NCBI GenBank assembly: GCA_029251085.1
Contig: JAQXDZ010000065.1
Span: forward strand, 1-64,000
Direction of reading: 5' to 3'
Origin: Mariniblastus sp.
Lineage (GTDB): Bacteria; Planctomycetota; Planctomycetia; Pirellulales; Pirellulaceae
Length of the DNA: 64,000 nucleotides
This document shows, piece after piece, positions 13,740 to 55,350 of this stretch (the first letter of the stretch is position 1; the number at the start of each line of letters is the position of its first letter). Made by a program: the position numbers and the translations under genes. Below the pieces are notes generated by a model. The model saw only the letters and a list, made by a program, of their open reading frames with translations, made no database searches and was not told the origin of the DNA.

Positions 13740-15423
13740 AACCTTTGCTCCAAATATATAGCTGCTGCATTTTTGCATTGCGAGGACCTTTATTGACTTC
13801 CGCAAACCCACGGCCTTTCTCAAAAAAGCCAATCGCAATTTTTTCTACGCCCTTCAGATCGTCACGTTTCATTTTGACCCGATCAATCACTGTTTCTTGA
13901 GGCTCCAAATTCGAGAATACAGCTTTATTGGCACTTCCTCGCTTCAAGATCTTATTCTCAACACTCAAAAAATTTAAAACACGAATCTCTCGTCGTTCTG
14001 CATTCAATTTCCACACAGCCTCTATCTGCAATCCATCATTTTCATCGCGAGTCACTCGTACTCCACGAAGAACAGCATCGCCACCAAATTGCACATCTTT
14101 AAATTCACTCGATGTGGCTGCAATAATCGCATCAGCTAACTTCCTACTATTTAAGTTAAATCGGGTTTGTTGGATGCCCCCCCAGCACGCCAAAAAGAGC
14201 AAAGAAACTATCACAATTTTTTTAATTGCAATCTCATTGGCTAAAGCATGGACCAAAGTCTTAATAAACGGCGCGGTAGTTTTTTTATCGAATCGAGCCA
14301 CGATCGCTTTACGAAATGGAACTTCAACCAAGTGGTAAAGCATTGATGCCAGGGCAAGTGAGATACCGAAGCAACCAGCAATCTGCAGCGGCGCAACCCA
14401 ACTCCCCTCAATTCGGGCATGCCGCGCAATGACAAGTAACACGCTCATGTGAACCATATAAAATGAATAACTTATTTCTCCGAGATATACGAACAATCGA
14501 CTCGATAAGAACCATGCTCCCCAACCCTGACTCCGGGCAAAGACAAAAATCAAAATCACAAATACGGGCGCTGCACCTGAGAACCGATACCAGTAATTGA
14601 AACTCGCACTTACCCCGAGCGGCTGCTCGTGACTGTACAAACCCAGCCAGTTCGAAAAGTAAAAAAATAAAATGATCAGCAAGACGCTTAACAATTCAAC
14701 AACCGTATCAAAAGTCCCTGAGTGTTCAGACCTCTGAGACCGTGACAAGAAAAAAATGCCACAGGCTATTCCCGAGGCGAATTCAAAACAGCGAACCGGA
14801 GGGAAGTTACGTATCAAAGTATCGAATTGAATCCCCTTGCTTTGCCAGGCCGGCCCATAAACACCAACCAAAAAGACGACAGCCAATGTGAAAAGCAAGA
14901 CTCCGAGATACTTAAAAACAAACCTCTTCGACCGCCCCATCAGAAACCATGGGAAGACAACATAAAAGAATGCCTCCACGGACAAACTCCAGGCGGGGCC
15001 ATTTAAAAAATACCCCCATTTGTGGCTGGGAACCCAAGCCTGAAGAAGAAAAACGTTGGTAACTGACTTCAGCAAGACATCGTCTTGCCTTAAGAATGCG
15101 GACCAACCCAGAACTGCGAAAAGGGCAATCAGGAGTGTAACGAGATGCAGTGGCCAAATCCTTGCCACTCTTCGCAGATAAAATTCCTTCAAAGGAAATT
15201 TGTTTGAGGTGGAAGCCTCCAGACGGGGCACGTACACGTAGGCGAGGATAAAACCTGAGAGTACGAAAAAAAAGCTTACTCCAGCGGCACCTATGGGTGC
15301 TTTGCCAAAATCATATTCTGGCCATTGCCCCGGAATATGCGCGACAAAAACTGCCAGTGCGGCCAAGAACCTTAATCCTGTAAGAGATTTTAGTTGCGTG
15401 TTTTGATACTTCAGTGTTTGCAT
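13732..15423 (-). CDS. membrane acyltransferase (acyltransferase 3 / OafA family) with extra C-terminal domain
   Basis: 563 aa. Residues about 10-385 hold roughly ten membrane segments typical of acyltransferase family 3, with LTGLRFLAALAVFVAHIPG at the N-terminus (the conserved His of the family) and FFFVLSGFILAY. Such proteins acylate exported sugars or glycolipids. After a further membrane segment (about 400-418) there is an additional soluble domain of about 150 residues, predicted to be outside the membrane, which I do not recognise. Start ATG at 15423. Substrate cannot be deduced from neighbours. Confidence 0.87.
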   Translation of the reverse strand: MQTLKYQNTQLKSLTGLRFLAALAVFVAHIPGQWPEYDFGKAPIGAAGVSFFFVLSGFILAYVYVPRLEASTSNKFPLKEFYLRRVARIWPLHLVTLLIALFAVLGWSAFLRQDDVLLKSVTNVFLLQAWVPSHKWGYFLNGPAWSLSVEAFFYVVFPWFLMGRSKRFVFKYLGVLLFTLAVVFLVGVYGPAWQSKGIQFDTLIRNFPPVRCFEFASGIACGIFFLSRSQRSEHSGTFDTVVELLSVLLIILFFYFSNWLGLYSHEQPLGVSASFNYWYRFSGAAPVFVILIFVFARSQGWGAWFLSSRLFVYLGEISYSFYMVHMSVLLVIARHARIEGSWVAPLQIAGCFGISLALASMLYHLVEVPFRKAIVARFDKKTTAPFIKTLVHALANEIAIKKIVIVSLLFLACWGGIQQTRFNLNSRKLADAIIAATSSEFKDVQFGGDAVLRGVRVTRDENDGLQIEAVWKLNAERREIRVLNFLSVENKILKRGSANKAVFSNLEPQETVIDRVKMKRDDLKGVEKIAIGFFEKGRGFAEVNKGPRNAKMQQLYIWSKGSE

Positions 15424-29710: not shown

Positions 29711-30082
29711 ACAGCGAACGGGCGTGACAACGTGATAAAGCGTCTCAACAGTGACACGTATTTGTGAAGAACTCACTGTAAGAAAAACGGGAATTCGCTC
29801 GCGAACCACACGAAGCTTTACTTGCCTCATGGCCGTGAACTTAGCTTCTCGGCCCGAGTCACTTCAACTGCCCTCGTCCGGCCTGTTTACTTGAAACGAA
29901 CGAAAGTAAACATAATTGAAACCGTTGTTCTCGGTACGATCGGACGCTTATTACCAACGCCAACGACGAGCACGCCAATACAATCAAGACCACCTCGATT
30001 GTCAGGCGATAAAAAATTGGAAGGCGCAACTGTATTTCCCTCGAATACAACGCTAAACCAATTCAAAGCAAGGCGGGCAAAA
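29711..30082. other. intergenic region
   Basis: About 370 bases. The frame of the next gene is open back to 29822, but its extension is not convincing, and the ATG at 30083 begins a normal signal peptide. I see no RNA gene or clear promoter here. Confidence 0.5.
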
Positions 30083-54144: not shown

Positions 54145-55350
54145 TTACAGTCGATTCATCGCGTTTAAACGTTTGATTTCTGTTCGAGTGAACGATTGAT
54201 CTCGTTTGCTCAACCTCGAAAGTGGTACATCTATTTCGACCTGGTCAGATCTTCTCAGCAGGATGACATTCCCACCTTCCATACCAACCAACCGTGCCTC
54301 CACCTGAAATTTCCCATTGGAGTCTTCGAACGTGCGCCACTCACTAATGAATGGCCCCCCTTCGGCCCCAGCTCCTTCAGCACGAGCCACCAATTGTTCA
54401 ATTGCTGTATCTAATTGGCTACCACGCAAGTTTTTAGCCTGAATAACTCCCTCGTGGTCAATCAAAAATATCGTCGGCCAACCTCGTATTTGAAAACTGG
54501 ATGAAATGTCACCTTGCGTACTCTTATCCCACCAGCTCCGCCAATTCAAATTATTATCCTTGACTGCATCTTTGGCTTTCGTTTTTTCTTTGTCGCTGTT
54601 AACCCCTAACAAAACAAAGGGGCGTCCTTTCATCTCATTGACGAGCGTCCGCTCGTGTCCGTACATCGCACGGCAAGGCGGTCACCAATCCCCCCAGAAA
54701 TCCAACATGATAACTTTGCCTTGATAATCCGAGAGCTGAAATTTGATGTTATCCAAATCCTTACCGCTGACTTCGGGGATCATGTCTCCGACTTCCAATC
54801 CCTTCGCGCCGGAAGCAGAAGCAAACTCCAACTTGTACTCCCGCGGCACTGGCTGACGCCCTGCCCCCGGTTGTCGTGAAGCGTCTGGATTTCGTGAAGC
54901 ATCTGGATTTCGTGAAGCATTATCACGAGACGCCATTCCTATTCCAGACGAAGCATCGCTTAAATTATTTCCACCAGGCGGTCGAATGCCTGGCAATGCG
55001 GTCCCCCCAATGCTGGATCCAACTCCCATACCGGGGCCGTCAGGCTGAGAACCTCTCGACTCAGATGAGCGTGAATCACGTGACTCCGGCGGTCTCGAAT
55101 TACGCAAGTTGGGTGATTCGGAATTGGAACGGTCGCTATCTACTGCTGCCATGTCCCGACCGTTTCGATCCTCGACGTCTGCAGGGCGAGTGTCTGGCCT
55201 GTCAGGACCACGGGAAGTGGATGATTCACGTTCTGAATTTGTTGCTGAGCCAGATGTCTTAGTCACCTCTGGTTCCGGATCAGCACAACCTGCCATGCTA
55301 ACCATTGCGATTAAAACAGCACATGTATTTAATATTCCGAGTTTTTTCAT
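54145..55350 (-). CDS. predicted selenoprotein: TlpA-type thioredoxin-fold lipoprotein with in-frame TGA at the active site
   Basis: Read through one TGA (54682-54684) the gene encodes 401 aa. Order: signal peptide with lipobox MAGC (residues 18-21), a low-complexity Ser/Arg/Asp/Pro linker (about 25-165, including 18-bp repeats), a TlpA-type thioredoxin fold (about 175-330) and a C-terminal SHD1-like domain (about 335-395; FQVEARLVGMEGGNVIL). The motif reads IMLDFWGDW-[TGA]-PPCRAMYGHE, so residue 223 is at the first Cys of WCPPC; homologues known to me have Cys there. Frame is intact on both sides. A GGGGAG precedes the ATG. Other genes here end in TGA (39492, 40204), so UGA is not globally reassigned. 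Selenocysteine is inferred; a nonsense mutation or sequencing error remains possible. Confidence 0.75.
54641..54656 (-). promoter_or_regulatory. candidate bacterial SECIS stem-loop
   Basis: On the minus strand, ACGAGC-GGAC-GCTCGT forms a 6-bp perfect stem with a 4-base loop beginning GG; 31 bases separate the TGA from the loop. From memory, the bacterial SECIS consensus needs a 4-16 bp stem, a 3-14 base loop with a G in its first two positions and 16-37 bases to the TGA; this fits all three. It lies in coding sequence, as bacterial SECIS elements do. Confidence 0.6.
54875..54920 (-). repeat. 18-bp tandem repeats in the lipoprotein linker
   Basis: Two and a half near-identical 18-base units (54875-54892, 54893-54910, then a partial third) encode the repeating residues SRNPDA/SRQPGA in the linker between lipobox and thioredoxin fold. 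Confidence 0.75.

Follow-up and report, generated by a model that had tools for sequence, protein, structure and literature searches.

The minus strand of the window, by which we mean the whole 64,000-nucleotide stretch of Mariniblastus sp. DNA analyzed here, carries a gene whose product, as judged from sequence, is almost certainly a selenocysteine (Sec)-containing and probably membrane-anchored lipoprotein that combines a TlpA/ResA-type thioredoxin domain with a C-terminal SHD1 domain (Table 1). An earlier note, made from the letters of this DNA, had proposed a selenoprotein at this place; our analysis strongly supports that reading and adds a SECIS hairpin, for which the note had no evidence. 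The coordinates it gave were correct, and the strand, which it left unstated, is the minus strand. As the note had anticipated, ordinary ORF calling under translation table 11 yields two truncated genes, one of 222 aa (55350..54682, minus strand) that ends in MLDFWGDW followed by TGA and a second of 173 aa (54666..54145, minus strand) that starts with MYGHERT. When the TGA is taken as a residue, the frame behind GDW-TGA continues just as the note had described it, giving 402 codons without a frameshift, of which codon 223 is the one TGA and the last is TAA. Since ordinary calling splits the gene in two, such proteins are easily misannotated. The gene is carried by contig 50 of a 5.49-Mb draft genome that is 92.67% complete.

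Table 1. Positions of the features discussed in the text, numbered along the window
Feature	Positions	Strand	Basis
Sec-protein gene, predicted TlpA/ResA-like thioredoxin-fold lipoprotein, 401 residues with Sec223, TAA end	54145..55350	minus	frame, orthologues, Pfam
In-frame TGA (UGA), codon 223, first position of W-U-P-P-C	54682..54684	minus	read-through frame, comparison of loci
Putative N-terminal signal sequence up to lipobox-like SMAG-C22	55285..55350	minus	by eye; orthologues
Thioredoxin-fold domain (AhpC-TSA, residues 187-305; Sec223, Cys226, GWPT)	54436..54792	minus	Pfam, model, Foldseek
SHD1 domain, residues 335-390	54181..54348	minus	PF03983 and model
Bacterial SECIS hairpin ACGAGC-GGAC-GCUCGU, 25 nt past UGA, apical loop at 31 nt	54641..54656	minus	comparison, bSECIS criteria

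The domain composition is supported by profile searches and by a predicted model. PF00578, PF08534 and PF13905 all score above their cut-offs and jointly cover residues 187-310, and the C-terminal part, which the earlier note had called SHD1-like, matches PF03983 with 43.5 bits against a cut-off of 23.7. The model has a mean pLDDT of 64.2; the thioredoxin and SHD1 parts are mostly predicted with high confidence and the active-site block with moderate confidence (69 for residues 221-230), and the linker stays below 50 (residues 18-167). SHD1 is modeled as strands and a helix, with a pLDDT of 71 for residues 331-340 and of 87-93 from there up to residue 390. At the N terminus, residues 18-22 read SMAGC, which by eye we take to be lipobox-like, and the N termini of all eight orthologues compared (see below) show, also by eye, a comparable [AT]GC. 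The GWPT of the thioredoxin domain is presumably its cis-proline-type motif.

The TGA and the frame behind it are conserved. We searched 147 genomes, namely the organism's own and those of relatives (the records of the named relatives are all MAGs), and found a match to the protein in 141 of them at E ≤1e-10. The closest among the matches listed are eight same-genus orthologues, counting the window's own copy (80-100% identity, or 80-95% for the other seven), and all eight keep the TGA. Random stops or frameshifts in the downstream half of relatives, which the earlier note had named as a sign against its reading, were looked for in these eight genes, and an open frame follows the TGA in each, of 178 codons in seven and of 194 in the eighth. 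The TGA also sits exactly at a Cys site, as had been claimed, with homologues carrying either TGA or a Cys codon there: 28 of the best 30 loci have TGA at this very codon and the other two have TGC and TGT. A further TGA count of 50/51 is biased, because Sec forms typically carry the query peptide MLDFWGDW and several loci duplicate other sampled contigs. The genomic surroundings are partly shared. Apart from the window's own contig, seven contigs carry an orthologue; six of them encode an MscS-type channel nearby (the seventh, from G008, ends there) and six a cupin (absent on L093). None of the neighbors was seen in the available stretches around three more distant homologues (L025, L026 and L097).

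Selection acts on both sides of the TGA. Among the pairs formed by the eight orthologues, median dN/dS is 0.209 in the N-terminal part (28/28 pairs), 0.026 in the 42 codons preceding the TGA (26/28 pairs) and 0.058 after it (28/28 pairs), while mean pS falls from 0.567 in the 42 preceding codons to 0.023 in codons 1-15 past the TGA, as against 0.577 beyond them. One orthologue (L024, G022:C303) has an odd end: it keeps the TGA and the hairpin and matches only to residue 340, after which an unrelated tail follows, and a search of every frame in the stretch examined did not recover its SHD1 part. A frameshift was considered as the cause, but no shifted copy of the tail was found. When G022 is left out, the median dN/dS values are 0.214 (N-terminal part), 0.018 (42 codons before the TGA) and 0.044 (after the TGA, 21/21 pairs), and the SHD1 part has 0.044 (20/21 pairs); the mean pS values are then 0.583, 0.026 and 0.556 for the 42 preceding codons, the next 15 and those beyond. 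The low dN/dS and the near-zero synonymous difference together indicate that translation continues past the TGA and that an additional RNA constraint lies directly behind it. Stops were also reported inside two other matches. In that from G011 (L029) a TAA falls in the linker region, ahead of the TGA, and in that on contig 93 of the own genome a TAG, which at first looked odd, is the natural end of a Cys paralogue.

These data bear on the possibility that the TGA is a true stop, the locus being a pseudogene, a sequencing error or two genes with a restart at the ATG at 54666 (MYGHERT...). Such a reading would account for the exactly two ORFs obtained under table 11, the ATG five codons past the TGA and the altered C-terminal tail in one of the eight orthologues. 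We nevertheless regard it as very improbable, given that eight of eight orthologues, all from different genomes, have the TGA, as do 91 of 92 hairpin sites (see below), that dN/dS is low on either side of it with hardly any synonymous difference right behind, and that a stop here would cut between both catalytic residues of the domain, which Cys paralogues keep whole.

The RNA behind the UGA of the proposed selenoprotein gene contains a bacterial SECIS hairpin. The accessible text of PMC13188914 gives as bSECIS criteria a loop of 3-9 nt, a stem of 4-16 bp, a G in the first two loop positions, a spacing of 16-37 nt and an MFE of ≤-7.5, and the hairpin taken alone lies within all of these, with a loop of 4 nt, GG, a stem of 6 bp, a spacing of 31 nt and -7.9 kcal/mol. 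Its general form across the family is ACGAGC-GGNC-GCUCGU. The six-pair stem is complete in 66 of 70 distinct TGA windows and its inner four pairs in 70/70, as against a complete stem in one of eight distinct Cys windows, four of which are orthologues of a single Cys gene and one a distant gammaproteobacterial record; the seven Cys windows lacking the hairpin include the Cys paralogue of the same genome. Three of the six stem pairs are invariant, and one alone of the other three shows a two-sided change (G-C to A-U, in four sequences); the loop pair 35-38 changes from G-C to A-U in three. As most pairs hardly vary, covariation by itself gives modest evidence. A variant hairpin, ACGAAC-GGUC-GUUCGU, occurs in L122, L125, L126 and L131, where the compensating pair change also turns Leu into Phe in the protein.

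Codon choice offers the strongest test of the hairpin. In 56 of 56 distinct loci that encode HERSLV, the codons GAG CGG TCG CTC for Glu, Arg, Ser and Leu are invariant, and His is CAC in 55 and CAT in one, while elsewhere in the HERSLV genes the same codons are used for 172/351 Glu (49%), 66/367 Arg (18%), 76/364 Ser (21%) and 149/453 Leu (33%). The third base of the Val codon, which lies outside the stem, varies freely in these loci. In the window's own gene, which does not belong to the 56, the residues are HERTLV and the stem is intact. Single-sequence folding was rejected as proof of a SECIS: the lowest-energy fold of the window's 53-nt stretch is another structure (z -1.65 against dinucleotide shuffles), and z-scores are modest. 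For this orthologue, therefore, the hairpin rests on comparison and not on single-sequence energy. Between the UGA and the SECIS, a possible first hairpin (alignment columns 14-16 with 24-26) has 86.2% of its cells paired and two-sided changes in 20/70 sequences at one pair; this is no more than suggestive of a second hairpin that may covary as well, and pairing is imperfect in the window's own sequence.

The hairpin is also closely tied to the UGA and to this protein family. A search with the exact pattern (TGN, 24 free bases, C, ACGAGCGGNCGCTCGT) finds 92 sites in 38 of the 147 genomes, 91 of them with TGA and one with TGC, and its reversed control gave one site in the 147 genomes. Searched in 28 genomes of the genus, the bare 16-mer gave 56 sites (control, one); these are the same sites that the exact pattern finds in the genus, and each lies within a match to the protein among the matches listed, so within the genus the exact hairpin is restricted to the family. 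The exact hairpin-plus-UGA pattern is thus a simple search key. A looser pattern that allowed two mismatches matched in at least 98 of the 147 genomes, but its reversed control matched in many as well, and we used the exact pattern instead. A second hairpin-like match in the window, at 14616, overlaps an ORF of 563 aa, acyltransferase-like by eye, without a TGA, and was judged unrelated.

The earlier note had suggested looking for selA, selB, selD and the gene for tRNA-Sec, and all four are present in the same genome. SelA scores 592.8 bits (cut-off 267.9), SelD 255.5 bits (cut-off 125) and tRNA-Sec, with the anticodon TCA, 67.4 bits (cut-off 47); SelB is full-length at 644 aa, with 367.1 bits against 242.25 and a SelB winged helix at its C terminus. 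In a 738-aa frame (L059 2913-5129, G000:C164), a pyridine nucleotide-disulfide oxidoreductase domain precedes SelD, which makes up the C-terminal part. That the TGA is instead read as another amino acid (e.g., Trp, in a table 4-like code) or passed by general read-through would likewise leave the frame open on both sides. We consider this so improbable as to be almost negligible: homologues without the TGA have Cys at the site, the Sec machinery is complete and the hairpin is tied to the TGA, and TGA apparently also serves as a stop, since the window has 32 frames that run from stop to stop over at least 250 codons, not all of them necessarily genes, and 7 of these end in it.

Across the order, SelA was found in 102 of 147 genomes at E ≤1e-20, in 89 of them above the cut-off. 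Among the matches listed, 39 genomes have one that bears the TGA, and SelA is present in 34 of these versus 68 of 108 others (Fisher p 0.0046); for the exact hairpin the figures are 34 of 38 genomes versus 68 of 109 others (p 0.0019). The association holds but is weak, SelA being widespread in the order in any case, and we set it aside as a main argument. No SelA match at E 1e-20 was obtained from four genomes that bear the hairpin (G003, G004, G018 and G023); G003 and G018 have SelB and tRNA-Sec, and in G004 (80% complete) and G023 (71%) no SelA, SelB or tRNA-Sec was found at thresholds of E 1e-20, 1e-60 and 1e-9. In G002, which has a TGA copy and no exact hairpin, tRNA-Sec was the only part of the machinery detected. 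The gaps in these five genomes likely reflect missing contigs.

The fold and the motif bear on what the selenoprotein does. Pfam, the predicted model and Foldseek agree on a thioredoxin fold with the (C/U)xxC motif of the TlpA/ResA-like superfamily; the best Foldseek hit of the model is 4grf (TMt 0.86, 32% identity), with ResA (1su9_B) at 0.85 and CcmG (2b1k) at 0.77. Most likely, judging from fold and motif, Sec223 acts as the nucleophile and Cys226 as the resolving residue in the reduction of disulfides outside the cytoplasmic membrane. A different main job, for example as a peroxidase-like or metal/selenite-handling surface protein whose SHD1 domain binds the partner, seems rather unlikely. 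The best Pfam matches, AhpC-TSA and Redoxin, would be compatible with such a job, as would the scores of the named NCBIfam models, which stay under their cut-offs (ResA 73.1/170 bits, TlpA 47.4/230), but the UxxC motif and the TlpA/ResA/CcmG-type fold neighbors favor thiol-disulfide exchange.

In the mechanism that we propose for disulfide reduction, SelB with Sec-tRNA(Sec) would bind the hairpin 25 nt past the UGA, so that Sec would be inserted at codon 223 in place of termination. Once the protein had been exported and, presumably, lipidated, the Sec223 selenolate would attack a substrate disulfide outside the cytoplasmic membrane, and Cys226 would resolve the resulting selenenyl-sulfide, as in CxxC thiol-disulfide reductases. 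Synthesis may depend on the selenium supply: when selenium is low, the product would end at residue 222, without the larger part of the catalytic domain. Sec could also render the enzyme more reactive, a point that the earlier note had put too firmly.

The selenoprotein kind to which this gene belongs is known. In the accessible text of PMC13188914, UxxC selenoproteins appear under cd02966, PF00578 and PF08534, alongside a UGC-type TlpA and, within PF00578, a UxxU form, and PMC9312934 has, in its accessible part, a similar selenoprotein table. Trx-like and Prx-like UxxC selenoproteins are reported from ocean samples in the part of PMC2398784 consulted, and the corresponding part of PMC5029168 includes Prx-like thiol:disulfide oxidoreductases among selenoproteins. 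With the cd02966/PF00578 UxxC (UxxU) class, as described in the available text of PMC13188914, the window protein shares the thioredoxin fold and Sec as the first residue of UxxC, a likeness by description only. It is set apart from that class, likewise by description, by its lipobox-like N terminus, its long low-confidence linker, SHD1 and a near-invariant SECIS, and its subfamily has the signature WGDWU[PG]PCRAMY-HERSLV. With ResA, TlpA and CcmG (DsbE) it shares the fold, whereas it has Sec in place of Cys, an SHD1 fusion and scores under the cut-offs of the named models. UGC-type TlpA selenoproteins (NF041054, ResA-like WAxxUGC) have in common with it a TlpA-like fold and Sec, but the window motif is UPPC, not UGC, and NF041054 reaches 23.2/300 bits.

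Planctomycete selenoproteins have been published as well. As far as its accessible text goes, PMC4807772 describes Sec machinery and selenoproteins in two planctomycetes from Porphyra, P1 and P2, and Sec-insertion genes in two more; the phylum and the type of machinery are shared with our genome, and its main text mentions FmdB in P2 and FdhA, which is among six P1 candidates with antioxidant activity. According to the review PMC13188914, in its available text, selenoproteins are rarely retained by aerobic bacteria. The string "planctomycet" is absent from the main text of PMC13188914, PMC9312934, PMC2398784, PMC5029168 and PMC12013277. The literature searched, largely without subscription papers or supplements, gave us no description of this subfamily of planctomycetes, in which one genome can hold several copies and the SECIS hardly varies, nor anything more specific on selenoproteins of Mariniblastus or Pirellula. 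The earlier suggestion that the gene could be undescribed is only partly right, the class being established and selenoproteins of the phylum already published. In effect, the window protein represents a new lineage-specific subfamily of a known selenoprotein kind, and the planctomycetes gain a well-supported selenoprotein subfamily together with its SECIS.

Sec and Cys forms of the protein occur side by side. Among the matches listed, the window's own genome has five, with Sec on contigs 50 (the window), 154, 23 and 124 and Cys on contig 93, and such coexistence in one genome makes the purpose of Sec testable. The Cys copy on contig 93 reads WCPPCRAMYGHEQEL and lacks the hairpin, as do its three orthologues that were examined. 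The residues that follow the site differ accordingly, Sec copies having HERSLV, HERTLV, HERSFV or HEQLLV and Cys copies without the hairpin HEQEL or HEREI. One locus (L141, G026:C166, about 29798-29841) has the Cys form WCRPC, with TGC, and an intact hairpin, which suggests that it is probably a recent change from Sec to Cys. We lean toward a broader reading of these sequences, in which an order-wide family of surface Sec-thioredoxins has expanded by duplication and carries one nearly unchanging SECIS at a fixed distance from the UGA, and in which the RNA, rather than protein function, would fix the residues behind the active site. If true, this would be a clear example of a recoding element that dictates protein sequence and serves a single duplicating family across an order.

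Several further loci deserve mention. Close pairs of Sec-TlpA genes on G078:C3 (91432 and 92117, around L034) and on G011:C1 (380555 and 381731) suggest tandem duplication. The same Sec-TlpA gene and hairpin are found in MAGs titled Proteobacteria (L124) and Verrucomicrobia (L138), through either transfer or misbinned contigs. Finally, in three TlpA-like loci (L142, L143 and L145; G051:C60, G099:C90 and G137:C27) the active-site motif is U-L-T-U and so contains a pair of in-frame TGA codons, with the same hairpin behind it; three other sites of the exact pattern (G051:C393, G088:C312 and G097:C119) look similar.
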